A stretch of DNA of 64,000 nucleotides from Chondrosia reniformis. Its lineage: Eukaryota; Porifera; Demospongiae; Chondrillida; Chondrillidae. Where the stretch lies: positions 3,350,501-3,414,500 of the forward strand of contig OX359196.1 of the NCBI GenBank assembly GCA_947172415.1, given 5' to 3'. Under the pieces are notes generated by a model, which searched no databases, was not told where the DNA came from, and was given only the letters and a program-made list of their open reading frames with translations. Position numbers and translations under genes: made by a program. Shown piece after piece: positions 18 through 62,830 of this stretch (positions within the stretch are counted from its first letter, which is position 1; each line of letters begins with the position of its first letter).

Positions 18-1126
18 TATTATTATTATTATTATTATTATTATTGTTGATTTAAGTGCATCATGTGCTGGATGCACACTAGGGCTATATTGCCCCATGT
101 GGCACTGTACAAAGAGTAATGAAACATACATTCAGGTTAAACATGGATAAACACAATCCTTATAACTTCTAATTCATCCCCTCCCAACAACCCTATCTTG
201 AGCTCGAAATTTTCCCTGAGAGAATTGTTTATTCATGATCAGCCCCTCAATTCTCCAAAATCTATGGTTCCATTTCGACTCCAATTCCATCAGCAGTTCC
301 TCCTTTCCTTTGAGCTCAAACCACCAAATATCCTTTCCCCCTCTTCTTTTGAAAATCCTTACCACGCTTAACTGTCTAGCTTTTTTCCAGCCATAATAGG
401 TAGCAGCCTCCCTCTTGACTTGACTATCAAGCATTGAACTACCCGTTCCCCTTAATTTCCTTATCTGCTGCCGTGGAATGGTTTTTTGCAATTCTTCTCT
501 CCTTAGACTAGTCAATCGTGATGCAACAGTGCTGGCGCTTTGAGTTCCTACATCTTCATGCATGTACTTCGGACAACAAAACGACTCTGGACTCCCTATC
601 CTGTCATCATTCCCATTCATCTTGATTTCTTGCAATTTGGTCAGCATCTGCTTTGGCTGCTCTATTTCATCTTCCCTAGCTTCAATCCTACTTGCAAGCC
701 TACTCACTCTTTGTTCTGCATCTTCTTTAAGGGTGGCAATTTCTTCCTTCAATTGAGCTACTTCATTCAAACAGATATCCTCATTATCAATAAACCTTTG
801 AACAACCATCAGCTTCCTTATAGCATAGAAGAAACAGAGGAAATGGACATCTTCCTGGGCAACGACTACCTGCGCAATTTTGTAACATGAAGGATGCGAC
901 CAACTACTACAGGTCTCACATTGAAGCCAATCCTTTCTATCTCTTGCTGCTGACTCCCTATTTCTCCCGCAAATGCACCTTATTACGTCCACTTTACTCG
1001 GTATTTTTGCCGACTGCCGTATTATTAATATATCATCACTTGGAGCCATCAAACTCTCCCTTCGCACTCGAACTGGTGTTACAACATCCTTAGCAAGGCT
1101 TTTACCAGGCACATTACCGCCATTAT
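18..1126 (-). mobile_element. PHD-finger retroposon, copy 1
   Basis: A non-satellite segment read on the minus strand: an open frame of about 310 codons, a short 3' untranslated region, then an (AAT)n tail (seen as ATT repeats at 20-45). The simple-repeat tail directly bordering satellite is typical of LINE-type target-primed insertion. No RT frame follows the first ORF, so the unit resembles an ORF1-only derivative of a LINE, comparable in concept to HAL1 elements of mammals. Copies 2 (27,134-28,240) and 3 (43,717-44,697) share the same ends and the same flanking satellite, so they are duplicates of one insertion and not three insertions. Confidence 0.75.
174..1112 (-). CDS. LINE ORF1-like protein with PHD finger and coiled coil
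   Basis: About 312 codons, open to a stop at 174-176. Residues about 45-95 form a PHD-type zinc finger: CxC, then CxxC, HxxC and a final C. The last expected cysteine is Tyr here (CFFY), whereas copy 3 has CFFC, so this finger has lost one ligand. Residues about 115-165 are a heptad-rich coiled coil (LNEVAQLKEEIATLKEDAEQ). The basic C-terminal part (GKDIWWFELKGKEELLMELE) may bind nucleic acid; that is inference. The frame opens with GTG at 1,112; the first in-frame ATG is at codon 22 (MAPSDD), the more likely eukaryotic start unless the element is 5' truncated. PHD fingers with coiled coils occur in ORF1 proteins of CR1-like LINEs, where they form ribonucleoprotein with element RNA. The longest intact copy of the three. 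Confidence 0.7.
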   Translation of the reverse strand: MPGKSLAKDVVTPVRVRRESLMAPSDDILIIRQSAKIPSKVDVIRCICGRNRESAARDRKDWLQCETCSSWSHPSCYKIAQVVVAQEDVHFLCFFYAIRKLMVVQRFIDNEDICLNEVAQLKEEIATLKEDAEQRVSRLASRIEAREDEIEQPKQMLTKLQEIKMNGNDDRIGSPESFCCPKYMHEDVGTQSASTVASRLTSLRREELQKTIPRQQIRKLRGTGSSMLDSQVKREAATYYGWKKARQLSVVRIFKRRGGKDIWWFELKGKEELLMELESKWNHRFWRIEGLIMNKQFSQGKFRAQDRVVGRG

Positions 1127-3162
1127 AAGTACCAGTTGTAAGTACTAATTGAATGAACTAGTTGTATGTACTAGTAAGTAATTGCATGTACTAATTGTAT
1201 ATAGTAGTTGAATGTACTAAATGTATGTACTAGTAACAATCTATATTTACTAATTGTATGTACTAGTTGTATGTACTAGCTGTATTTAGTTATTTGTACT
1301 TGTTGAATGTACAAGTTGTGTGTAATTGTTGTATGGACTAGTTATATGTACTAGCTGTATGTATTAGATGTGTGTACCTGTTGTATGTACTAGTTATATG
1401 TACTAGATCTATGTACTAGCTGAATGTACTAGTTTTGTGTACTAGATGAATGTACTAGTTGCATGTACTTATAGGTACTACTTATATGAACTAGTTGGTC
1501 TATTTTTTATTTGCTAGTTATATTTACTGGTTGTAGTTACTAGTTTAATGTACTAGTTGTATGTACTGCTTGTATGTTCTATTAACTAGTTATATGTAAT
1601 AGTTCTATGTACTAGTTATATGTAGTACTTGTATGTAGTAGTTGCATGTACTAGTTGTATATACTAGTTAAATGTACTAAATGTATGTACTAGTAACAAT
1701 CTGTATTTACTAATTGTATATACTGGTTAGATGTACTAGCTCTATGTTCTAGTTGTAGTACTAGTTGTATGTACTATATAGTTATATGTACTGGTTATAT
1801 GTACTAGTTGTTTGTACCACTTGTATGTACTTGTTGTATTTACTTTTTGTATGCACTAGTTGTGTGTAGTTATATATATGTACTATATAGTTGCGTGCAA
1901 TTGTTGTACGTATGTACTAGTTGTATGTATTAATTGTAAGTGGTAGTTGTATGTACTAGCAAGTAGTTGGATGTAATTGTTAATATGTACTGGTTGTATG
2001 TGCTAGTTTTATATAGAAGGGGTATGTACCAGTAACAGTCTGTATTTACTAGTTGAATGTACTAGTTGTATGTACTAGTTGAATGTAGATATATGTACTA
2101 GTTGTATGTACTCGTTGAGTGTAATTGTTGTTCGTACTAGTTATATTTACTATATAGTTGTAGTTACTAGTTCTCTGTACTAGTTATATGTACTAGTTGT
2201 ATGAAATTAGTTATATATAGTAGGTGTGTGTACCAGTAACAATCCGTATTTACTAGTTGTATGTACTAGTTGCATGTACTAGTAACTAGTTGTAGGTACT
2301 AGTTTTGCGAAATTGATGTATGTACTAGTTTTATATACTAGTTGTATGTACTAGCTGTATTTACTAGTTATATGTACTAGTTCTATGGACTAGTTTTGTA
2401 AAACTGTTGTATGTACTAGTTATGTGTATTAGTTGTATGAAATAGCTGTATGTACTAGTTATATATACTTGTTGTATGTACTAGCTGTATGTACTAGTTG
2501 TATGCAGTTATATATACTACTTGTATGTACTAATTGTGTGTATTTTATTGTATACTAGTTAAATTTACTAGTTGTAGTTATCAGTTTTATGTACTAGTTG
2601 AATGTACTAGTAGCTAGATATATTTACTAGTTCTATGTACTAGTTCTATGTACTTGTTGTAAGCACTAATTTAATGTACTAGTAACAATCTGTATTTACT
2701 AATTGTATGTACTAGTTGTATGTACTAGTTGTATGTACTTGTTTTATGTAGTAGTTGTATGTACTAATTATATGTAGTAGTGGTAACTACTAGTAATTAG
2801 TTGCATGTACCGGTTATTTGTAATAATTGTATGAACCAGTTGTATGTACTAGTTGTGTGACATTGTTGTATGCACTAGTTATATATAGTACTTGTAGGCA
2901 CTAGCTGTATATACTACTTATATATACTAGTTGTATGTATTCATTGGATATACTAGTGACTATTTGTATGTACAAGTTGTATGTACTAGTTCTCTGTATT
3001 AGTTTTAAGTACTAATTGTGTGAAATTGATGTATGTGCCAGATATATTTACTAGTTGCATGTACTAGCTGTATTTACTAGTTATATGTTCTAGTTGTATG
3101 TACTTGTAACTAGTTATAGGTACTAGTTGTGTGAAATTGTTATATGTACTAGTTATGTGTAC
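1127..3162 (+). repeat. 13-bp satellite, block 1
   Basis: Diverged tandem copies of TACTAGTTGTATG with recurrent variant units such as AGTAACAATCTGTATTTACT and GTGTGTAATTGTTGTATG. The order of variants from 1,141 onwards matches 28,255 onwards, so this block is a direct segmental duplicate of the satellite beside retroposon copy 2. No gene is visible. Confidence 0.9.
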
Positions 3163-3293: not shown

Positions 3294-3339
3294 GGGTCAG
3301 ACAGCCGTTTCTGGGAATTCCACCCTTCATCAGTGATCC
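3294..3339 (-). ncRNA. Hammerhead-like ribozyme of PLE-A
   Basis: On the minus strand the core reads CTGATGA, a stem II GGG/CCC hairpin, GAAAC, a short stem III AC-GGCT-GT, cleavage triplet GTC, then TGACCC, which pairs with the preceding GGATCA to form stem I. This is the type I layout reported for Penelope-like elements. A flanking A on each side of stem II is unpaired, a deviation from the textbook fold. Not shown active here. Confidence 0.7.
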
Positions 3340-3423
3340 TGGGAGTCTTTGTCTTTTTCTTTATATTGATCTTCTGTGAATCCTTGGCTCACCATGCTAA
3401 ATCTAGGGGCCTTATATACACTA

Positions 3424-5912: not shown

Positions 5913-6205
5913 TTGGCAATATTTCGAAACTTAAAAAAGAAATCATCATATGGAACCTTTTTAATCGCTCATCTCATAAAAGAGGGCATCGGCACTCCAA
6001 TCTAAAATTGACAGGCAGTAGTAATAATGCTACCTTTGACCCTGAATGGCTAAAAGAACGACTACCACTTTACAAGAACATGGGCTTTCTGGCCAAACTT
6101 AAACGCGATACTTTTGCATTACAAGCTCAACACCTTCATCGTTAATTTGTAAACTCGGTACAATGTCTCATCGATACTCCAGAAACACCTTTTCCACTTA
6201 GACTT

Positions 6206-6643
6206 ATGCTAATGATTAAAGATGCTATTAAAGCACGCGCTTCAGCCAGCCTTCCCAAACACCCAAAGAAAACAACAAGTCCAGAAGGGTTTCTAAAAAT
6301 CATGTTTCATAATAAAGGTGTGGAAAAAGTAGGCCTCTCAGGTGTCTTAAACCAAAAGTTAGTGTTAGAAACTGTCCCACCCATTATACAAAACAAAGAG
6401 CCCCCATGTGTAGTATATAAGTATACCCAACCAATAGGACCTCAAATCTTTAACTTTTCACAAGCGTCTAAGTCAGATGTCTTTAGAAAACCAGAACCAT
6501 GTGAGTGTCACAAGTCCCCCTTCATTTACAAGTCTCTAGGCCATGTTTTAACAGGTGACCTATGTATTGTTAGTAACCCAAACCTAGAAAACTTCTTAAG
6601 AAAGGACCAAAATTTAGAGAACCTAATAACTTTAATTGGGTAA
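6206..6643 (+). pseudogene. PLE-A N-terminal linker region
   Basis: A 145-codon open part of the PLE-A polyprotein. It contains FHNKGVEKVGLSGVL, the Cys motif CECHKSPF and GHVLTGDLCIVSNPNLENFL, a stretch preceding RT in Naiad-like PLEs. Matching sequence continues upstream to about 5,935 behind an in-frame stop near 6,142. A frameshift near 6,630 separates it from the RT (the continuation FNWVTALKM is in another frame), followed by a TGA near 6,690. Non-functional as it stands. Confidence 0.7.
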
Positions 6644-6786
6644 CTGCTTTAAAAATGTGTAAGGAAGGTCTTAGAAAATATAAAATTAACTGAGCCCGTA
6701 GAGAAAATGTATCCACTTCTGTACTTAGTGAGTGGGAAAATGCTGTACCTAAGAAAATTAATGATAGGATCTCTAAGCTGTCTAAA

Positions 6787-7821
6787 TTGTATACCAAATC
6801 CACAGTAGCCAAGAAGACCCTTACTTGCTCTAAAATTAAGAAATTCTTAGCAGACCTATATGATAAGTATGTTATAGCCCCTGCCGATAAGGCCTCTAAT
6901 AATATCATATTTATATGTAAGTCCTACTATAGACAAATTATTAATAAAGAACTAGGCAGTACCTCCACTTATGCTAAGTGTACAGTACCCCAACAGTTAA
7001 TTAGGAAACACATAGATTTCCTAAAACTAGAGAACTTAAAACCTAAACCAGACTGGTGTAACCTTCCCTCTTTTTACTGGATGCCTAAGCTACATAAGAA
7101 CCCTTACAGCTACAGATTCATAGCTGCCTCTCACAAATGTACTACCAAACCCCTTTCTAGATTTCTAAATTTGGCACTCAGACTAATTCTCAAACATTTT
7201 AGAGAATACTGCCTAGGTATATATAGGAATACTGGTATTAATGCCTTTTGGATAGTTGAAAAGTCACTAGAAGTCTTAGATAGTCTTACGTCTATACCCA
7301 CTAGAAAAGCCCAGCTAGCTAGTTTTGATTTTTCTACCTTATATACAGCGATCCCCCATAACCTACTTAAAGACAAGATTACTAACCTTATTCATAGTGC
7401 CTATACCTGTAGGAAGTCCCAATATATAGAAGTCTGTCAGGATAAAGCCCTTTGGTCTAACAATGTCTCCAATAAAGCAGTCACAGCTGTTCATTTAGTA
7501 GAACTCTTTAATTACCTTATTGACAACATTTATGTATGTGTAGACAGTTCTGTATTTAAGCAATGTGTAAGTATCCCTATGGGTACTGACTGTGCCCCTG
7601 TAGTTGCTAATCTTTTTCTGTTTGCCTATGAGTATGAGTTTATGAAAGGACTACTTAAAGATAACATCACCTTAGCTATTAAAGTTTTCAACACTTATAG
7701 GTATATTGATGACCTTTTATGTATTAATAACAAGGATTTTGAACTGTCAATTAGTGATATTTACCCCAAAGAAATTATTCTTAAAAAGACAAATACCAGC
7801 CCTAGGAAATCCTCCTTTTAA
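6787..7821 (+). pseudogene. PLE-A reverse transcriptase core
   Basis: Reverse transcriptase, the enzyme that copies element RNA into DNA during target-primed integration. Visible motifs: FYWMPKLHKNPYSYRFIAAS (RT motifs 1-2), ASFDFSTLYTAIPH (motif A, first catalytic Asp), IPMGTDCAPVVANLFLF (motif B), NTYRYIDDLLCINN (motif C with the catalytic DD pair). The frame opens at a TTG by calculation only; true coding continues upstream. It ends at TAA 7,819-7,821, where the right-arm copy has TTA (Leu in FLDLDI), so this is a single nonsense change. The right copy carries different lesions. Confidence 0.8.
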
Positions 7822-8214: not shown

Positions 8215-8389
8215 CCTAAGGGTAGACTTATGTAATATGTTTTACTTGTGTCTATAGTTATGTTGAGTCTGTTTTACCTATAAGCAAGATTAATAATAGA
8301 TTTATAATTAATTCATAAAATTAATTGGACCTACATTCCTTTCATAAAATTAAATTTCATCATGTGTCTTAGTTAACACCTTATTTAAC

Positions 8390-8416
8390 TTTTGGCGCCA
8401 AAATAGTGTATATAAG
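8390..8416 (+). promoter_or_regulatory. PLE-A promoter: E2F-like palindrome plus TATA
   Basis: TTTTGGCGCCAAAA (8,390-8,403) is followed 5 bp later by TATATAAG (8,409-8,416), about 70 bp before the hammerhead motif. The layout suggests transcription starting just upstream of the ribozyme, as expected for a PLE pseudo-LTR. Copies at 24,263, 37,570 and 47,215 carry single changes in the palindrome. Function is inferred. Confidence 0.45.
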
Positions 8417-8487
8417 GCCCCTAGATTTAGAATAGTGAGCCAAGGATTCACAGAAGATCAAGATAAAGAAAAAGACAAAGACTCCCA

Positions 8488-8533
8488 GGATCACTGATGA
8501 AGGGTGGAATTCCCAGAAACGGCTGTCTGACCC
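8488..8533 (+). ncRNA. Hammerhead-like ribozyme of PLE-A
   Basis: CTGATGA core at 8,494, GGG/CCC stem II, GAAAC, stem III AC-GGCT-GT, then GTC with predicted cleavage between 8,527 and 8,528. Stem I pairs GGATCA with TGACCC with one mismatch. It lies about 160 bp from the element's 3' end. Same motif in all six longer PLE-A copies. Confidence 0.7.
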
Positions 8534-8690
8534 AGTGGAGAAGAAGATGAAAGAAGGGAAAAGAAGGAAGGAAAGACTCTTGTATCTTCATCTAAAGCTC
8601 TCTTTAGGTTTAGTTCCCCTATAGGTTCTTTTTACAGAATAGGCATATAGAATGTACGAAAATGGTATCTTAGATTTTTCATACAACTAG

Positions 8691-10584
8691 TAAATAGAAC
8701 TAGTCCTAGGAGATAGAACTAGGGCATACAAGTAGTTCATACAATTAGTACATACAACTAGTACATATAATTAGTACGCAAACATATAACTTGTATTATT
8801 ACACAAATATATAATTAGTACACACACATATAACTGGTACTTATAAATAATACATTCACATAGTACATACAAATAGTTCATACAAATAGTGTATACAACT
8901 AGAAACTAGTACATACAAGTATTTCATAGAATGAGTGAATATTACTAGAACATACAACTTGTATATACCACACACTAGTTACATAGCTACTACATACAAC
9001 TAGTATATACGTACAACTAGTACATACAACTCGCACATAACTAGTACACACAATTAGTATTTACAACTGCTACATACTACTACTATATACAATTAGTACC
9101 TACAACTAGTAAATATAACGAGTACTAGTACATAAAACTAGTGCAGACAACTAGTAAATGCAACCAGTACCTCTGAATAGTACACACAACTAGTACATAC
9201 AATTAGTAAATTCAACTAGTACAAACAACTGGTACAAACAACTACGACATATAAATAGTAAATACATCTACTACATATAACTAGTACATACACATATACC
9301 TAGTATTTATAGAAACGTACATACAACTAGAACATATAACTAGAACATATAACTAGTACATTCAACTAGGCCATAAAACTAGTATCTATTACATACCACT
9401 AGTACTTACTTAGGACCTAGTATAACTAGTACTAGAACCTACAACTAGTAAATTCAACTAGATAATACAACTAGTACATACAACTAGTACATACAACTAG
9501 TACATGCAACTAGTAACTACAACTAGTAAATATAACTAGTACATACAATTACCCACAACTTGTCCATACATGTAATACATATAATTAGTACACACAACTA
9601 GTACATACAACTTATACATTCAACTAGTGCATGTAACTAATACACACAACTACTACATATATCTAGTACATGCAACTAGTACATACAACTAGTAAATACA
9701 ACTAGTGCATACAATAAGTGCATATAACAAGTACATAAAACTAGTACGTAGGTAGTACAAACAACTAGTGCATACAACTAGTACATACAACTGGTTAATA
9801 TCTAGTACATACAACTAGTACATGCAACTAGTAAATACAATTAGTACATACAACTACCACATAAAACTAGTACATACACCTAGTACCTAAAACTAGTAAA
9901 TATAAATAGTACTAGTACGCACATCTAGTACATATAACTGGTACATACACATATAAATAGTACATATAAACAGTACGTACAACTAGTACATATATCTAGT
10001 ACATACAAATATAACGAATACATATAAGTAGTACATACAACTAGTACATACAACTAGTACATATAAATAGTACATACAACTAGTCCATACAACAATTACA
10101 GACAACTAGTACATATAACTAGTACATATAACTAGTACATACAATTAGTATCTAGTACATAGAACTAGTGCCTACTTAGTTCCTAGTATAACTAGTATTA
10201 GAACCTATAACTAAAACATACAACTCATACATACAAGTAGTACATACAACTATTACCTACATATAGTACATATAAAAAGTACATGCATCTAGTATATACA
10301 ACTAGTACATGCAATTAGTACATGCAACCAATAAATACAACTAGTACATACAACTACCACCTACAACAACTACATACAACTAGCACCCACAACGTATATA
10401 TAACTAGTAATGGTACATACAACTAGTACATGCAATGAGTACATGCAACCAGTACATACAGCTACTTCATACAAGTAGTACATATACCTAGTACATATAA
10501 ATATTACGTACAACAAGCACAAATAACTAGTACATACAACTTGTACATATATCTTGTCCATACAAATATAACGAATATATATAT
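8691..10584 (-). repeat. 13-bp satellite, inverted block
   Basis: ACATACAACTAGT orientation, 1.9 kb. Mirrors 60,792-62,342 (for example the flank AATATAACGAATATATATAT at 10,565 and its complement at 60,783). No gene seen. Confidence 0.9.
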
Positions 10585-12605: not shown

Positions 12606-15078
12606 TATGTACTAGTAACAATCTGTATTTACTACTTGAATGTACTAGTAACAATCTGTATTTACTAGTTGAATGTACTAGTTATATGTACCAGTTGTAT
12701 GTACTAGTTGTATGTACTACCTGTATGTACTAGTTTTTACCTGTATTTACTAGTTGTATGTAGTATTTGTGTGTAGTTATATATACTAGTTGTATGTACT
12801 AGTTATAAGTAATGGTTCTATGTAATAGTCGTATGTAGTTATCTGAATTAATTGTATATACTAGTTGTATGTACAAGTGAGTAGTTGCATGTACTAGTTA
12901 TATGTACTAGGTGTATGTACTAGGTGTAAGTACAAGTAACAATCTGTTTTTACTAACTGTTTGTACCAGTTGTATTTACTAATTTAATGTACTAGTATCA
13001 ATCTGTATTTAGTAGTTGAATGTACTAGTTATATGTACATGTTCTATGTATTAGTTGTATGTACTAGGTGTATGTACTAGTAACAATTTGTATTTACTTG
13101 TTGTATGTACTAGTTTTATGTACTAGTTGTATGTACTAGATGTATGTACTAGTTGTATGTACTAGTCGTATGTAGGTATAAGAATTATTTGTAGTTACTA
13201 GTTATATGTAATAGTTGTAAGTACTAATTGTATGAACTAGTTGTATTTACTAGAAAGTAGTTGCTTGCTTTAGTTATATGTACTAGTTTTATGCACTAGT
13301 TGTATGTACTAATTGTATATAGTAGTAACTAGTTGTATGTACTAGTTGTATGTAGTAGTTACTAGTTGTATGTACCACTTGTATGTACTAGTTGTAAGAA
13401 CTAGTTGAATGGACTAGTTGTATGTACAAGTTATATTTAGTTATATGTACTAGTTGTCTGTACTAGTTGTACGTATTTGTTGTATGTACTAGTTATATGT
13501 ACTAGTTGTATGTACTAGAAACTATGTTTTATACTAGTTGTATGTATTAGTTCTATGTACTTGTTTTGTGTACTGGAAGTATGTGCTAGTTGTATGTAGT
13601 TATAGCTTCCACTTGTATATACTAGTTGTGTGCATTTTTTGTATACTAGTTATTTCTACTAGTTGTAGTTACTAGTTTAATGTACTAGTTGTATGTACTG
13701 CTTGTTTGTACTAGTAACTAGATTTGTATACTAGTTGTATGTACTAGTTGTATGTACTAGTTTTATTTAGTTATATGTAATAGCTGTATGCATATACTAG
13801 TTGTTTGTAATTGTTGTATGTACTAGTTCTTTGTAGTAGTTGTATGTAGTGATTGTATGTACTAGTTGTAAGTACTGTTGAGTTTTTGCATGTACTAGTC
13901 ATACGTACTAGTAGTATATACTAGTTGTACATACTCCGTGTATGTACTAGTTACAATTTGTATTAAGTAATTTTATGTAATAGTTGAATTTACTAGTTTT
14001 GTAAAATTGTTGTATGTACTACTTGTATGAACTAGTTGTATGTACTAGTTATATGTACTTGTTGTATGTACTAGTTGTATGGACTAGTTGTATACTAGTT
14101 GTGGGTACTATTTGTATGTACTAGTAACAATCTGTATTTACTAGTTGAATGTACTAGTTATATGTACTAGTTGTATGTACTAGTTGCATGTACTACCTGT
14201 TTGTACTAGTAACAATCCCTATTTACTAGTTGTATGTTGTAGTTGTGTGTAGTTATATGTACTAGGTGTATGGACTAGTTGTGTGTAATTGCTGTATGTA
14301 CTAGTTATAATTAATAGTTCTATGTAATAGTTGTATGTAGTTATATGAATTAATTGTATGTACTAGTTGTATGTACTAGTAAGTAGTTGCATGTACTAGT
14401 GGTATGTACTAGTTGTATGTACTAGTTTTATGCTATGGTTGTATGTACTACTTGTATGTACTACTTGTATTTACTAGTAAGTAGTTGCATGTTTTCGTTA
14501 TATGTACTAGTTGTATGTAGTAGTAACTAGTTGTATATACTAGTTGTAAGTAATAGTAACTCTGTTTTTGTACTAGTTGTATATATTAATTCTCTGTACT
14601 TGTTTTGTGTACTGGATGTATGTGCTAGTTGTATGTATGTATAGCTTCTACTTGTATATACTAGTTGTGTGCATTTTTTGTATACTAGTTATTTCTACTA
14701 GTTGTAGTTACTAGTTTAATGTACTGGTTGTTTGTACTGGTTGTATGTACTAGTAACTAGATGTATATACTAGTTGTATGTACTAGTTGTATGTACTAGT
14801 TTTATTTAGTTATGTGTAATAGCTGTATGCATACACTAGTTGTGTGTAATTGTTGTATGTACTATTTCTTTGTAGTAGTTGTATGTAGTAATTGTATGTA
14901 CTAGTTGTAAGTACTGTTAAGTTTTTGCTAGTTATACGTACTAGTTGTATATACTAGTTGTACGTACTTCGTGTATGTACTAGTAACAATTTGTATTAAC
15001 TAATTTTATGTACCAGTTGAATTTACTAGTTGTGTAAAATTGTTGTATGTACTACATGTACTAGTTGTATATACTAGT
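12606..15078 (+). repeat. 13-bp satellite with about 1-kb higher-order units
   Basis: TACTAGTTGTATG orientation. Larger units recur, marked by TATAGCTTC(C/T)ACTTGTATA at about 13,600, 14,640 and 15,390; the mirrored right arm has only two (about 58,050 and 59,010). No gene seen. Confidence 0.85.
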
Positions 15079-15233
15079 TGACCCAGTGGAGAAGGAGATG
15101 AAAGAAGGGAAAAGAAGGAAGAAAAGACTCCTGTATCTTCATCTAAAGCTCTCTTTAGGTTTAGTTCCCCTATAGGCTCTTTTTACAGAATAGGCATATA
15201 GCATGTAGGAAATTGGTATATTAGATTTTTCAT
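15079..15233 (+). mobile_element. PLE-A tail starting at ribozyme cleavage site, copy 1
   Basis: 155 bp from TGACCCAGTGGAG to TTTTTCAT, equal to PLE-A from the predicted hammerhead cleavage point (8,528 equivalent) to its 3' end. The TG at the left junction also fits satellite, leaving a 2-bp ambiguity. Confidence 0.8.
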
Positions 15234-15824
15234 GTATGTTCTAGTTGTATGTACTAGTTGTATGTAGTAGTAACTAGTTGTATATACTAGTTGTAAGTAA
15301 TAGTAACTCTGTTTTTGTACTAGTTGTATATATTAATTCTCTGTACTTGTTTTGTGTACTGGATGTATGTGCTAGTTGTATGTATGTATAGCTTCTACTT
15401 GTATATACTAGTTGTGTGCATTTTTGTACACTAGTTATTTTTACTAGTTGAAGTTACTAGTTTAATGTACTGGTTGTTTGTACAGGTTGTATGTACTAGT
15501 AACTAGATGTATATACTAGTTGTATGTACTAGTTGTATGTACTAGTTTTATTTAGTTATGTGTAATAGCTGTATGCATATACTAGTTGTGTGTAATTGTT
15601 GTATGTACTATTTCTTTGTAGTAGTTGTATGTAGTAATTGTATGTACTAGTTGTAAGTACTGTTAAGTTTTTGCTAGTTATACGTACTAGTTGTATATAC
15701 TAGTTGTACGTACTTCGTGTATGTACTAGTAACAATTTGTATTAACTAATTTTATGTACCAGTTGAATTTACTAGTTGTGTAAAATTGTTGTATGTACTA
15801 CATGTACTAGTTGTATATACTAGT
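15234..15824 (+). repeat. 13-bp satellite between PLE-A tails
   Basis: Satellite part of the second 746-bp unit. No gene seen. Confidence 0.9.
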
Positions 15825-15979
15825 TGACCCAGTGGAGAAGAAGATGAAAGAAGGGAAAAGAAGGAAGAAAAGACTCCTGTATCTTCATCTAAAGCTCTCT
15901 TTAGGTTTAGTTCCCCTATAGGCTCTTTTTACAGAATAGGCATATAGCATGTAGGAAATTGGTATATTAGATTTTTCAT
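15825..15979 (+). mobile_element. PLE-A tail starting at ribozyme cleavage site, copy 2
   Basis: Same 155-bp fragment as at 15,079 with one visible difference (GAAGAAGATG for GAAGGAGATG), produced by the tandem duplication and not by a second insertion. Confidence 0.8.
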
Positions 15980-16891
15980 GTATGTTCTAGTTGTTTCATG
16001 TATGTACTAGTTGTATGTACTTGTTGTATGTACTAGTTAAAGGTAATAGTTTTATGTAATACTCGTATGTAGTTATATAAATTAATTGTATATACTAGTC
16101 GTATATACTAGTAAGTAGTTGCATGTACTAGTTATATGTACTAGTTGTATGTGCTATGTGTAAGTACTAGTAAGAATCTGTATTTACTAGCTGTTTGTAC
16201 TAGTTTTATTTACTAATTGTATGTACTAGTATTAATCTGTATTTAGTAGTTGAATGTACAAGTTATATGTACTAGTTCTATGTATTAGTTGTATGTACTA
16301 GGTGTATATACTTGTAAAATTTGTATTTACTAGTTGTATGTACTAGTTGTATGTAGTAGTTGTATGTACTAGTTGTATGTACTTGTTGTAGGTACTAGTT
16401 GTATGTATTAGTTGTATGTACTAGGTGTATATACTAGTAAAAATTTGTATTTACTAGTTGTATGTAATTGTATGTAATAGTTGTATTTACTAGTTGTGTA
16501 AAATAGTTGTATGTACATGTTCTATGTACTACTTGTATGTACTAGTTGGATGTATATACTAATAACTAGTTGCATATACTAGTTGTATGTACTAGTTGTG
16601 TGTAATTGTTGTATGTACTAAGTATAGGTACTAGTTGTATTTACTAGTTGTATGTACTAGGTGTATGTACTAGTAACAATCTGCATTTACTAATTGTATG
16701 TACTAGTTGTATGTACTAGTTGTATTTAATTATATGTACTAGTTGTTTGTACTAGTTGTGTGAAATTGTTGTGTGTACTAGTTATATGTACTATTTGTAT
16801 ATACTAGCTGTATATTTATATGTAGGAGTGATATGTACCAGTTGTATGTAGTTATAGGTACTACTTGTATATACTAGTAGTGTGTATTTTT
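15980..16891 (+). repeat. 13-bp satellite block
   Basis: TACTAGTTGTATG orientation; no gene seen. Confidence 0.9.
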
Positions 16892-24262: not shown

Positions 24263-24637
24263 TGAAAAATCTAAGATACCATTTTCCTACATGCTATATG
24301 CCTATTCTGTGAAAAGAGCCTATAGGGGAACTAAACCTAAAGAGAGCTTTAGATGAAGATACAGTAGTCTTTTCTTCCTTCTTTTCCCTTCTTTCATCTT
24401 CTTCTCCACTGGGTCAGACAGCCGTTTCTGGGAATTCCACCCTTCATCAGTGATCCTGGGAGTCTTTGTCTTTTTCTTTATCTTGATCTTCTGTGAATCC
24501 TCGGCTCACCATGCTAAATCTAGGGGCCTTATATACACTATTTTGGTGCCAAAAGTTAAATAAGGTGTTAACTAAGACACATGATGAAATTTAATTTTAT
24601 GAAAGGAATGTAGGTCCAATTAACTTTTATGTATTAA
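24263..24637 (-). mobile_element. PLE-A 3' fragment
   Basis: Complete 3' end (GAAAAATCTAAGATACC on the plus strand) through hammerhead and promoter to CAATTAACTTTTATGTATTA; no coding. Mirrors 47,215-47,579. The palindrome is altered (GGTGCC). Confidence 0.8.
24411..24456 (-). ncRNA. Hammerhead-like ribozyme of PLE-A
   Basis: Same 46-nt motif as at 8,488, with CTGATGA, GAAAC and GTC all intact. Confidence 0.7.
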
Positions 24638-27133: not shown

Positions 27134-28240
27134 TATTATTATTATTATTATTATTATTATTGTTGATTTAAGTGCATCATGTGCTGGATGCACACTAGGG
27201 CTATATTGCCCCATGTGGCACTGTACAAAGAGTAATGAAACATTCATTCAGGTTAAACATGGATAAACACAATCCTTATAACTTCTAATTCATCCCCTCC
27301 CAACAACCCTATCTTGAGCTCGAAATTTTCCCTGAGAGAATTGTTTATTCATGATCAGCCCCTCAATTCTCCAAAATCTATGGTTCCATTTCGACTCCAA
27401 TTCCATCAGCAGTTCCTCCTTTCCTTTGAGCTCATACCACCAAATATCCTTTCCCCCTCTTCTTTTGAAAGCCTTACCACGCTTAACTGTCTAGCTTTTT
27501 TCCAGCCATAATAGGTAGCAGCCTCCCTCTGGACTTGACTATCAAGCATTGATCTACCCGTTCCCTTAATTTCCTTATCTGCTGCCGTGGAATGGTTTTT
27601 TGCAATTCTTCTCTCCTTAGACTAGTCAATCGTGATGCAACAGTGCTGACGCTTTGAGTTCCTACATCTTCATGCATGTACTTCGGACCACAAGAAGACT
27701 CTGGACTCTCTATCCTGTCATCATTCCCATTCATCTTGATTTCTTGCAATTTGGTCAGTATCTGCTTTAGCTGCTCTATTTCATCTTCCCTAGCTTCAAT
27801 CCTACTTGCAAGCCTACTCACTCTTTGTTCTGCATCTTCTTTAAGGGTGGCAATTTCTTCCTTCAATTGAGCTACTTCATTCAAATGGATATCCTCATTA
27901 TCAATAAACCTTTGAACAACCATCAGCTTCCTTATAGCATAGAAGAAACAGAGGAAATGGACATCTTCCTGGGCAACGACTACCTGCGCAATTTTGTAAC
28001 ATGAAGGATGCGACCAACTACTACAGGTCTCACATTGAAGCCAATCCTTTCTATCTCTTGCTTCTGACTCCCTATTTCTCCCGCAAATGCACCTTATTAC
28101 GTCCACTTTACTCGGTATTTTTGCCGACTGCCGTATTATTAATATATCATCACTTGGAGCCATCAAACTCTCCCTTCGCACTCGAACTGGTGTTACAACA
28201 TCCTTAGCAAGGCTTTTACCAGGCACATTACCGCCATTAT
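27134..28240 (-). mobile_element. PHD-finger retroposon, copy 2
   Basis: Same structure and ends as 18-1,126: (AAT)n tail at 27,134-27,165, 3' region, ORF. It also shares the right-hand flank from AGTACCAGTTGTAAGTAC, so it is a segmental duplicate. Copy 3 (43,717) is its mirror partner. Confidence 0.75.
27483..28226 (-). pseudogene. PHD/coiled-coil ORF1-like protein, frameshifted
   Basis: Matches 174-1,112 through the PHD finger (CICG, CETC, HPSC; last ligand also Tyr) and coiled coil. After QIRKLRE it leaves the frame because one C is missing from a CCCC run near 27,565, giving a spurious ending VDQCLIVKSRG. The remaining C-terminal part is readable in another frame down to about 27,290. 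About 247 codons stay open; probably non-functional. Confidence 0.7.
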
Positions 28241-30466
28241 AAGTACCAGTTGTAAGTACTAATTGAATGAACTAGTTGTATGTACTAGTAAGTAATTGCA
28301 TGTACTAATTGTATATAGTAGTTGAATGTACTAAATGTATGTACTAGTAATAATCTATATTTACTAATTGTATGTACTAGTTGTATATACTAGCTGTATT
28401 TAGTTATTTGTACTTGATGAATGTACAAGTTGTGTGTAATTGTTGTATGGACTAGTTATATGTACTATCTGTATGTATTAGATGTGTGTACCTGTTGTAT
28501 GTACTAGTTATATGTACTAGATCTATGTACTAGCTGAATGTACTAGTTATATGTCGTAGTTGTTTGTACTAGTTGTATGTACTCGTTGTAAGTAGTAGTT
28601 GGATGTACTAGTGGTATGAACTAGTTGTAGGTGCTAGTAACTAGTTATATGTACTAGATCTATGTACTAGTTCTATGTACTAGTTTTGTGTACTAGATGA
28701 ATGTACTAGTTGCATGTACTTATAGGTACTACTTATATGAACTAGTTAGGTCCATTTTTTATTTGCTAGTTATATTTACTGGTTGTAGTTACTAGTTTAA
28801 TGTACTAGTTGTATGTACTGCTTGTATGTTCTATTAACTAGTTATATGTAATAGTTCTATGTACTAGTTATATGTAGTACTTGTATGTAGTAATTGTATG
28901 TACTAGTTGTAAGTACTAGTAAGTGGTTGCATGTACTAGTTGTATATACTAGTTAAATGTACTAAATGTATGTACTAGTAACAATCTGTATTTACTAATT
29001 GTATGTACTGGTTATATGTACTAGCTCTATGTTCTAGTTGTAGTACTAGTTGTATGTACTATATAGTTATATGTACTGGTTATATGTACTAGTTATTTGT
29101 ACCACTTGTGTGTACTTGTTGTATTTACTTTTTGTATGTACTAGTTGTGTGTAGTTATATATATGTACTAGTTGCGTGCAATTGTTGTATGTACTAGTTG
29201 TATGTATTAATTGTAAGTGCTAGTTGTATGTACTAGCAAGTAGTTTGATGTAATTGTTATATGTACTGGTTGTATGTGCTAGTTTTATATAGTAGGGGTA
29301 TGTACCAGTAACAATCTGTATTTACTAGTTGAATGTACTAGTTGTATGTACTAGTTGAATGTAGATATATGTACTAGTTGTATGTACTCGTTGAGTGTAA
29401 TTGTTGTTCGTACTAGTTATTTTTACTATATAGTTGTAGTTACTAGTTCTATGTACTAGTTTTATGTACTACTTGTATATACTAGTAGCTAGTTGCAAGT
29501 ACAAGTTGTATGTACTAGTTCTCTGTACTAGTTATATGTACTAATTGTATGTATTAGTTATATATAGTAGGTGTGTGTACCAGTAACAATCCGTATTTAC
29601 TAGTTGTATGTACTAGTTGTATGTACTAGTAACTAGTTGTATGTACTAGTTGTATGAACTAGTTCTATGTACTAGTTTTATGTACTAGCTGTCTGTACTA
29701 TTTGTGTGTACTAGTTGTATGTACTAGTTGTGTGTAAATTGTGTATCTACTAATTATATTGACTAGTTGTAGTTAATAGTTATGTCTACTAGTTCTATGT
29801 ATTCGTAACCAGTTGCATGTACAACTGTATTTACTAGTTATATGTACTAGTTGTATGTAGTAGTTGTAGGTACTAGTTTTGCGAAATTGATGTATGAACT
29901 AGTTTTATATACTAGTTGTATGTACTAGCTGTATTTACAAGTTATATGTACTAGTTCTATGGACTAGTTGTGTAAAACTGTTGTATGAACTAGTTATGTG
30001 TATTAGTTGTATGAAATAGCTGTATGTACTAGTTATATATACTTGTTGTATGTACTAGCTGTATGTTCTAGTTGTATGCAGTTATATATACTACTTGTAT
30101 GTACTAATTGTGCGTATTTTATTGTATACTAGTTACCAGTTTTATGTACTAGTTGAATGTTCTAGTAGCTAGATATATTTACTAGTTCTATGTACTAGTT
30201 CTATGTACTTGTTGTAAGCACTAATTTAATGTACTAGTAACAATCTGTATTTACTAACTGTATGTACTAGTTGTATGTACTAGTTGTATGTACTAGTTGT
30301 ATGTACTAATTTTATGCAGTAGTGGTAAGTACTAGTAATTAGTTGCATGATACCGGTTATTTGTAATAATTGTATGAACTAGTTGTAGATACTAGGTGTA
30401 TGCACTAGTAACAATCTGTATTGAATAATTGTATGTACTAGTTGTAGGTACTAGTTGTATATATAC
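28241..30466 (+). repeat. 13-bp satellite block
   Basis: TACTAGTTGTATG orientation; direct duplicate of block 1 (1,127 on). The segment around GTAAGCACTAATTTAATG at 30,214 recurs at 33,729, 3,515 bp away. Confidence 0.9.
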
Positions 30467-37569: not shown

Positions 37570-37931
37570 ATACATAAAAGTTAATTGGACCTACATTCCT
37601 TTCATAAAGTTAAATTTCATCATGTGTCTTAGTTAACACCTTATTTAACTTTTGGCACCAAAATGGTGTATATAAGGCCCCTAGATTTAGAATAGTGAGC
37701 CAAGGATTCACAGAAGATCAAGATAAAGAAAAAGACAAAGACTTCCAGGATCACTGATGAAGGGTGGAATTCCCAGAAATGGCTGTCTGACCCAGTGGAG
37801 AAGAAGATGAAAGAAGGGAAAAGAAGGAAGAAAAGACTACTGTATCTTCATCTAAAGCTCTCTTTAGGTTTAGTTCCCCTATAGGCTCTTTTTACAGAAT
37901 AGGCATATAGCATGTAGGAAAATGGTACACA
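37570..37931 (+). mobile_element. PLE-A 3' fragment
   Basis: From ATAAAAGTTAATTGGACC to GGAAAATGGTAC; the last about 17 bp of the element are missing exactly as at 3,163. No coding. Confidence 0.8.
37748..37793 (+). ncRNA. Hammerhead-like motif of PLE-A, core changed
   Basis: Same motif as 8,488 but GAAAC reads GAAAT, disrupting the second pair of stem III; probably weakened. Confidence 0.5.
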
Positions 37932-43716: not shown

Positions 43717-44538
43717 CATGGACGTAATAAAGTGCATTTGAGGGAGAAATAGGGAGTCAGCAGCAAGAGATAGAAAGGATTGGCTTCAATGTGAGACCTG
43801 TAGTAGTTGGTCGCATCCTTCATGTTACAAAATTGCGCAGGTAGTCGTTGACCAGGAAGATGTCCATTTCCTCTGTTTCTTCTGTGCTATAAGGAAGCTG
43901 ATGGTTGTTCAAAGGTTTATTGATAATGAGGATATCCGTTTGAATGAAGTAGCTCAATTGAAGGAAGAAATTGCCACCCTTAAAGAAGATGCAGAACAAA
44001 GAGTGAGTAGGCTTGCAAGTAGGATTGAAGCTAGGGAAGATGAAATAGAGCAGCTAAAGCAGATACTGACCAAATTGCAAGAAATCAAGATGAATGGGAA
44101 TGAGATGACAGGATAGGGAGTCCAGAGTCTTTTTGTGGTCCGAAGTACATGCATGAAGATGTAGGAACTCAAAGCGTCAGCACTGTTGCATCACGATTGA
44201 CTAGTCTAAGGAGAGAAGAATTGCAAAAAACCATTCCACGGCAGCAGATAAGGAAATTAAGGGGAACGGGTAGATCAATGCTTGATAGTCAAGTCCAGAG
44301 GGAGGCTGCTACCTATTATGGCTGGAAAAAAGCTAGACAGTTAAGCGTGGTAAGGATTTTCAAAAGAAGAGGGGGAAAGGATATTTGGTGGTTTGAGCTC
44401 AAAGGAAAGGAGGAACTGCTGATGGAATTGGAGTCGAAATGGAACCATAGATTTTGGAGAATTGAGGGGCTGATCATGAATAAACGATTCTCTCAGGGAA
44501 AATTTCGAGCTCAAGATAGGGTTGTTGGGAGGGGATGA
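43717..44538 (+). pseudogene. PHD/coiled-coil ORF1-like protein, broken
   Basis: Begins DVIKCI then TGA (TGC in copies 1 and 2), destroying the second zinc ligand. The rest of the finger is otherwise complete and, unlike the other copies, keeps the final cysteine (CFFC). The coiled coil is intact (43,901-44,095). A 2-bp loss at GGAATGAGATGACAGG shifts the frame near 44,100. The C-terminal 129 codons (44,149-44,538) are open, ending QDRVVGRG. Confidence 0.75.
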
Positions 44539-44666
44539 ATTAGAAGTTATAAGGATTGTGTTTATCCATGTTTAACCTGAATGTATGTTTCATTACTCTT
44601 TGTACAGTGCCACATGGGGCAATATAGCCCTAGTGTGCATCCCGCACATGATGCACTTAAATCAAC

Positions 44667-47214: not shown

Positions 47215-47579
47215 AAAGTTAATTGGACCTACATTCCTTTCATAAAATTAAATTTCATCATGTGTCTTAGTTAACACCTTATTTAACTATTGGCGCCAAA
47301 ATAGTGTATATAAGGCCCCTAGATTTAGCATAGTGAGCCAAGGATTAAAAGAAGATCAAGATAAAGAAAAAGACAAAGACTCCCAGGATCACTGATGAAG
47401 GGTGGAATTCCCAGAAACGGCTGTCTGACCCAGTGGAGAAGAAGATGAAAGAAGGGAAAAGAAGGAAGAAAAGACTACTGTATCTTCATCTAAAGCTCTC
47501 TTTAGGTTTAGTTCCCCTATAGGCTCTTTTCACAGAATAGGCATATAGCATGTAGGAAAATGGTATCTTAGATTTTTCA
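47215..47579 (+). mobile_element. PLE-A 3' fragment
   Basis: Mirror of 24,263-24,637, complete to TTTTTCAT. The palindrome is altered on one side (CTATTGGCGCCAAAA). Confidence 0.8.
47386..47431 (+). ncRNA. Hammerhead-like ribozyme of PLE-A
   Basis: Intact 46-nt motif as at 8,488. Confidence 0.7.
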
Positions 47580-62511: not shown

Positions 62512-62557
62512 GGGTCAGACAGCCGTTTCTGGGAATTCCACCCTTCATCAGTGATCC
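62512..62557 (-). ncRNA. Hammerhead-like ribozyme of PLE-A
   Basis: Intact 46-nt motif as at 8,488. Confidence 0.7.
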
Positions 62558-62830
62558 TGGGAGTCTTTGTCTTTTTCTTTATCTTGATCTTCTGTGAATC
62601 CTTGGCTCACTATGCTAAATCTAGGGGCCTTATATACACTATTTTGGCGCCAAAAGTTAAATAAGGTGTTAACTAAGACACATGATGAAATTTAATTTTA
62701 TGAAAGGAATGTAGGTCCAATTAATTTTATGAATTAATTATAAATCTATTATTAATCTTGCTTATAGGTAAAACAGACTCAACATAACTATAGACACAAG
62801 TAGAACATACTACATAAGTCTACCCTTAGT

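Follow-up and report, generated by a model that had tools for sequence, protein, structure and literature searches.

Insertions of a sponge Penelope-like element recurrently begin at the predicted cut of its own hammerhead ribozyme

Minimal hammerhead ribozymes are widespread in the Penelope-like elements (PLEs) of animals, and PLEs carrying them are reportedly the subject of Cervera and de la Pena 2014 and of Lunse et al. 2017. One source calls the in vivo activity and role of these hammerheads "still a mystery" (PMC7761336). For the Anolis element Poseidon PAc, a 2024 in vitro study describes a reverse transcriptase (RT) that starts at an internal site of the RNA, and a hammerhead that cuts RNA when protein is present, the protein being needed; uncut RNA was the dominant substrate, the ribozyme was not needed, and no RNA-seq reads are reported to begin or end at the ribozyme cut (PMC11167929). 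R2 elements carry HDV-like ribozymes that release them from an rRNA co-transcript, and the normal 5' end of these elements is made in this way (PMC3774820). Animal retrozymes are small non-autonomous units with type I hammerheads, thought to be moved by PLEs, which occur as tandem repeats carrying the ribozyme and form circular RNA (PMC7229834).

The element described here, PLE-A of the sponge Chondrosia reniformis, resembles PAc and other PLEs with minimal hammerheads in combining a putative RT and a GIY-YIG nuclease with tandem pLTRs that hold a minimal hammerhead, and in an insert 3' end that fits an internal RT start (PMC11167929). On the other hand, the GIY-YIG side is N-terminal in PLE-A and C-terminal in PAc, the cut falls in the leader rather than inside the ORF, and PLE-A has inserts starting at the cut base, whereas for PAc uncut RNA is reported as dominant in vitro and no RNA-seq ends at the cut (PMC11167929). 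As in R2, the element's own ribozyme is predicted to cut at the 5' junction of the insert, but it is a hammerhead instead of an HDV-like ribozyme, and the end that it would make is a minority end instead of the normal one (PMC3774820). The tails of PLE-A found on their own (solo tails) share with retrozymes the association with type I hammerheads and the character of small non-autonomous units, and differ from them in being monomers that are bounded by the cut on one side only and lack the ribozyme (PMC7229834). A reading of the solo tails as retrozymes was rejected, as those directly adjoining non-element DNA end at the tail 3' end and hold no hammerhead inside. In the literature surveyed, which is partial and may omit an earlier mention, no report was found of PLE insertions starting at a hammerhead cut.

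The window is the whole stretch of 64,000 nucleotides analysed here (C8:3350501-3414500), and the assembly searched comprises 117.38 Mb in 15 contigs. The features on which the analysis draws are the following, in window coordinates:

15079..15233, + strand: solo tail copy 1, flanked by satellite on both sides, beginning at the predicted cut base and reaching the tail end
15825..15979, + strand: solo tail copy 2, duplicate of copy 1 at an offset of 746 bp
14684..15994, + strand: local duplication carrying both solo tails, block 14684-15248 being repeated at 15430-15994 with 5 mismatches
6146..7821, + strand: decayed PLE-A body in two frames, 6146-6643 and 6694-7821, the latter with RT-like motifs and no Pfam match
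8409..8417, + strand: TATATAAGG, 33 nt before the AAGG where many short copies start
8439..8445, + strand: GCCAAGG, probable transcription start zone, about where 17 of 49 sampled copies start
8484..8533, + strand: minimal hammerhead of a ribozyme-bearing PLE-A copy, predicted cut 8527^8528, no Rfam match
8528..8682, + strand: tail of the ribozyme-bearing PLE-A copy whose hammerhead is 8484..8533
3294..3343, - strand: hammerhead of another PLE-A copy, predicted cut 3300^3299
24411..24460, - strand: hammerhead of another PLE-A copy, predicted cut 24417^24416
37744..37793, + strand: hammerhead of another PLE-A copy, predicted cut 37787^37788
47382..47431, + strand: hammerhead of another PLE-A copy, predicted cut 47425^47426
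62512..62561, - strand: hammerhead of another PLE-A copy, predicted cut 62518^62517

Both solo tails are 155 bp long, run from TGACCC to the tail end GATTTTTCAT, and are directly adjoined on each side by a satellite with a 13-bp repeat. All six other window copies of the tail start have a hammerhead core directly upstream, with GTC before TGACCC; this upstream sequence reads CTGATGA .. GAAA .. GTC, a minimal hammerhead whose predicted cut lies exactly before TGACCC, and the 30-base tail-start pattern has 8 matches in the window vs 0 in 100 shuffles. The start of the 155-bp fragments at the predicted cut GTC^TGACCC, claimed in an earlier note on this DNA, was confirmed for both copies. That note had also taken the second copy for a duplication, and hence the pair for one event, which agrees with the block common to both (extending 395 bp before and 170 bp past TGACCC, with 5 mismatches and a 746-bp offset) and with a third solo tail at C8:3341985 (L003), whose satellite flanks are the same; since the three copies share their flanks, they represent one insertion event. 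At the junction the satellite reads ACTAGTTG, so that TG is present in satellite and tail alike and the first two bases are assignable to neither side, an ambiguity of 2 bp already pointed out in the note. A unit adjoining the satellite three times contains a PHD-finger-like frame (Pfam PF00628, E 5.2e-6; window 174-1157(-), 27483-28271(-) and 43720-44666).

The tail continues into the PLE-A body at five loci (L008, L027, L067, L073, L084), and the tail end of the inserts thus falls inside sequence that runs on, which is consistent with an internal RT start. The body in L067 leads into an ORF encoding a GIY-YIG endonuclease (L067:1591-3026, Pfam PF01541, E 1.3e-4, score 22.6, equal to the cut-off), followed by the equivalent of window frame 6146-6643, which in the window copy precedes the frame 6694-7821. 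The same locus presents a tandem arrangement, in which the ORF end of one copy is followed by a pLTR (ribozyme and tail) and then by the next ORF start; together with the ORF order, this indicates a PLE in tandem with its nuclease on the N-terminal side, an arrangement that we take to be that of Naiad-type PLEs. The strings DFSTLYTAIPH, IPMGTDCAPVVANL and YRYIDDLL in 6694-7821 presumably correspond to PLE RT motifs. Searches with this frame found no match up to E 10 in Pfam and none that is credible in the PDB; the assignment as RT is tentative, being based on the motifs. At L010 / L071 (C1:5551983) a PLE-A copy is directly followed by what is by eye a GIY-YIG-like part of another PLE, inside which the copy probably sits.

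Regarding the ribozyme, the PLE-A hammerheads contain the minimal type I core CUGANGA..GAAA..NUH. Helix I covaries between families, with 34 of 42 pairs formed in seven representatives (7 of the 10 typed rows; L070b, which pairs 2/6, was left out) and 32 of 20000 permutations as high; the families read GGGTCA/TGACCC (6/6), ACCACA/TGTGGT (6/6) and GCCATA/CATGGC (5/6), among others, and PLE-A itself pairs 5/6 with an A-C mismatch. L087 and L070 represent hammerhead-bearing families of the UGUGGU and UAUGGC types. Helix III has at most one pair in PLE-A, and its near-absence explains why Rfam finds no hammerhead, either at gathering scores in the window or up to E 10 in 8380-8720. Minimum-energy folds of the lone piece as a single strand are not hammerheads and are no better than those of shuffles. 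The hammerheads of PLEs are described as being without helix III and as possibly cleaving in dimeric form (PMC7761336). Other PLE families in the window also show hammerhead-like cores with almost no helix III (21519(-), 34494(-), 36500(+), 47710(-), 50323(+), 51036(-) and 53038(+)), arranged as inverted pairs around their bodies.

Beyond the window, the whole assembly was searched with exact patterns, single mutations being excluded by requiring three flank bases unlike the element. The junction pattern DTGACCCAGTGGAGAAG (base before T not C) has 131 genome matches and its reversed control 0, and the intact TGTCTGACCCAGTGGAGAA has 1422. With three flank bases unlike the element, 47 matches occur at the cut base, of which seven carry TGT or TGG and look like ribozyme mutants (two of the seven were read). 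The counts at control positions are raw matches and hence upper limits: 5 at position -5, which is another TG; 2 at -3, where the reversed control gave 19, more than the real ones; 13 at +2, six of them with the same flank TCA; and 3 at +85. Position +3 has 53 matches, and was discarded as a control because 34 belong to one tandem array and another six resemble sites that have lost an A; 13 remain. For one of the upstream start points discussed below (AAGGATTCACAGAAG), a pattern of this kind has 64 matches. Junctions at the cut base therefore recur genome-wide well above the other positions counted, the array-spoiled +3 aside: the 40 matches left after removal of TGT/TGG against the 5 at -5 give a p of 4e-8, and the 18 independent direct insertions read among the 47, set against all five at -5, a p of 0.005. 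The earlier note had named scattered 5' junctions without a peak as the outcome that would speak against its reading; most of that test was carried out, and the cut base showed a peak that is both sharp and recurrent. The cut-base junction pattern of a second PLE family (L070 type) has 0 genome matches, a count that is uninformative without the copy number of that family. The tail start or a close relative of it also forms short tandem arrays with units of ~28-31 nt (C3:7259522-7260714, C7:5308349-5308449, and L019 at C2:757236).

Altogether 53 sites were read one by one. They are the window event with its three copies, the 30 that come first among the 131, and a further 20 from the 47, and they take in 33 of the 47 cut-base sites. 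The first 30 comprise 17 direct junctions (13 independent), six ribozyme mutants, four restarts inside a tail, one join to the element's own upstream part, one array and one site with ~50 nt of tail; the 20 further sites comprise 13 direct junctions, three restarts, one upstream join, one doubtful site (L092), one beside another PLE tail (L106) and one that is not the element (L105). Window event included, 27 independent insertions have non-element DNA directly before TGACCC. Dropped from this count were the ribozyme mutants (L010, L020, L031, L034, L035, L036), the restarts at TGACCC inside or beside a tail (L027, L028, L030, L038, L090, L098, L104), two sites where the upstream part of the element, lacking the ribozyme, directly abuts TGACCC (L014, L091), the array L019, L032 with its ~50 nt of tail, L092 (whose flank may hold 10 nt of the element), L105, L106, and as duplicates L017, three of L023-L026 and two of the three window-event copies. 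When 34 flanks of 48-120 nt were compared all-against-all, only L016/L017 and L023-L026 proved related, both being recognised duplicate groups; the flank of L029 contains an older PLE piece ending 39 nt before the junction. At L103 a target duplication of 17 bp, with one mismatch, ends at TGACCC, its other copy starting 3 bases past the usual tail end. No convincing long target duplication was found at the other loci, where the automated search gave mostly chance matches of 6-7 letters; as it misplaced the tail end in, e.g., L009, L011, L012, L018, L022, L089, L096 and L102, only L103 is used. The restarts and upstream joins look like template jumps from a discrete RNA end, and are not independent proof of one, since the pattern by which they were found requires TGACCC.

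With good though incomplete confidence, we regard these fragments as best explained by insertion of the 3' product of PLE-A hammerhead self-cleavage, the RT having run to the 5' end of the RNA. The proposal of the earlier note, that a self-cleaved RNA was reverse transcribed and inserted, is accordingly well supported by the cut-base peak, which falls short of proof. Weighing against it are the lack of a hammerhead match in Rfam, the folding of the lone piece, the A-C mismatch in helix I, and the PAc findings of dominant uncut RNA and of no RNA-seq ends at the cut (PMC11167929). Among the other explanations, the one that survives best, as a minor possibility, invokes microhomology only: targets would end in ..ACATG, and prematurely ended cDNAs would join wherever the element reads TG, TGACCC included. 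The base before TGACCC in the 27 independent junctions is A in 17, T in 7 and G in 3 (hand count; C is excluded by the pattern); where it is A, the TG may belong to the target, which leaves a two-base uncertainty about the exact end. The flanks indeed favour ACA, ACAT and ATG endings, TG is often shared with the element, and three of the five hits at the -5 TG read ACA|TG. Nonetheless, this TG, the sole other one counted, lies only five bases away and has 5 hits vs 47 (40 without TGT/TGG) at the cut, and there are flanks with no shared TG, such as ACAT|TGACCC in L093, L094 and L096 and ATG|TGACCC in L011 and L018. The TG match may thus add to the cut-base peak, and does not account for its size.

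The commoner 5' end of PLE-A was sought from the other side, with a 27-base pattern near the 3' end that has 1243 genome matches. The first 100 listed all lie on C1, and 50 of these were read by hand, 49 being distinct. Seventeen of the 49 start at GCCAAGG..GGATTC, 84-90 nt before the cut, and include the ribozyme; L061 and L062 are duplicates of each other, leaving 16 independent upstream starts, and by hand reading the hammerhead core is intact in 16 of the 17 (all save L075). As for the rest, L082 starts slightly further up, 19 extend further upstream (one of them, L073, with an internal deletion), 11 are scattered truncations, and one, L087, begins at the cut and differs in a letter immediately beyond it. 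As L011, L012, L013, L016 and its duplicate L017 are also among the 100 C1 matches, the cut is the start of at least 6 of the 100 listed copies (5 independent), as against the 0.28 expected in a 3-base slot from scattered truncation. The TATA-like TATATAAGG, 33 nt above the AAGG start, suggests that the upstream start, ~86 nt before the cut, is probably the transcription start. Ends at the cut are hence in the minority, outnumbered by 5' ends at the probable transcription start. In this sense, the view of the earlier note that cleavage defines the 5' end of the element holds for the minority class and fails for the usual end (17/49 upstream vs 1/49 at the cut), and an R2-like normal 5' end at the ribozyme cut was rejected on the same counts. 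In a duplicated stretch, the flank of L048 appears to preserve the L049 site without its insertion (C1:2036754, 2048476).

Two further explanations concern the origin of the end. The junction is the edge of a structured region, and RT might stop at the folded ribozyme rather than at a cut end; we hold this to be improbable, given that a stop at helix I would be expected 3' of the UGACCC strand, at about +6 and not at 0, and that the commonest inserts, the upstream-start copies with their nearly always intact cores, traverse the whole ribozyme. Marginally less credit is due to an RNA end at TGACCC that stems from a host nuclease or from a second transcription start: how an RNA end came about is not visible in sequence data alone, but the base is that of the predicted hammerhead cut, helix I covaries, and ~30 nt before TGACCC there is no TATA-like word (GGGTGGAATTCCC stands there), while the upstream start has one at 33 nt.

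A tree was built from 27 tails of the cut type and 34 that bear the ribozyme. On it the cut-type/ribozyme label changes at least 19 times (shuffled mean 20.3), 2 of the 58 inner branches being strong; identity of the cut-type tails to one reference tail ranges over ~70-99%. Scattered among the ribozyme-bearing tails on this weakly supported tree, the cut-type tails appear to have arisen repeatedly, and the solo tails do not look like a separate lineage. A single SINE-like lineage, self-copying from a solo source and passing on its start, would account for the shared 5' base and mostly shared 3' end of the direct solo tails, and is in our view very improbable in the face of this mixing and this spread of identities.

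The preferred reading, insertion of the ribozyme-cut RNA, can be set out as a sequence of steps. Transcription of PLE-A would start ~86 nt upstream of the cut, below the TATA box, giving a leader in which the minimal hammerhead is followed by the 155-nt tail and then by the ORF, an order seen in the tandem copies. The RT would start at an internal site, the tail end (TTTTTCAT), as it does in vitro for the Anolis PLE, and continue to the 5' end that the RNA happens to have, in most cases the transcription start and sometimes the ribozyme cut. Whole RNA would then yield an insert of ~240 nt with the ribozyme, and ribozyme-cut RNA an insert of 155 nt beginning TGACCC. Finally, the new DNA end may be joined to a target ending like ..ACATG, with TG often shared, as a plausible second-strand step.

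The recurrent cut-base fragments are suggestive of actual ribozyme cleavage in the animal and of the cut pieces being copied back into DNA. We lean, by a modest margin, towards the wider proposition that PLE hammerheads cut in the germ line, that the cut RNA is a regular minor template for insertion, and that the genome keeps a fossil record of cleavage. If this is true, at least 6/100 copies at the cut vs 17/49 at the transcription start would translate into a rough in vivo cut fraction near one in seven, and the same count of cut and start ends would be feasible in any PLE-rich genome. The junction peak at the cut base leads to a sharp prediction for RNA ends, and makes the question of whether PLE hammerheads act in vivo answerable from assembled genomes alone.
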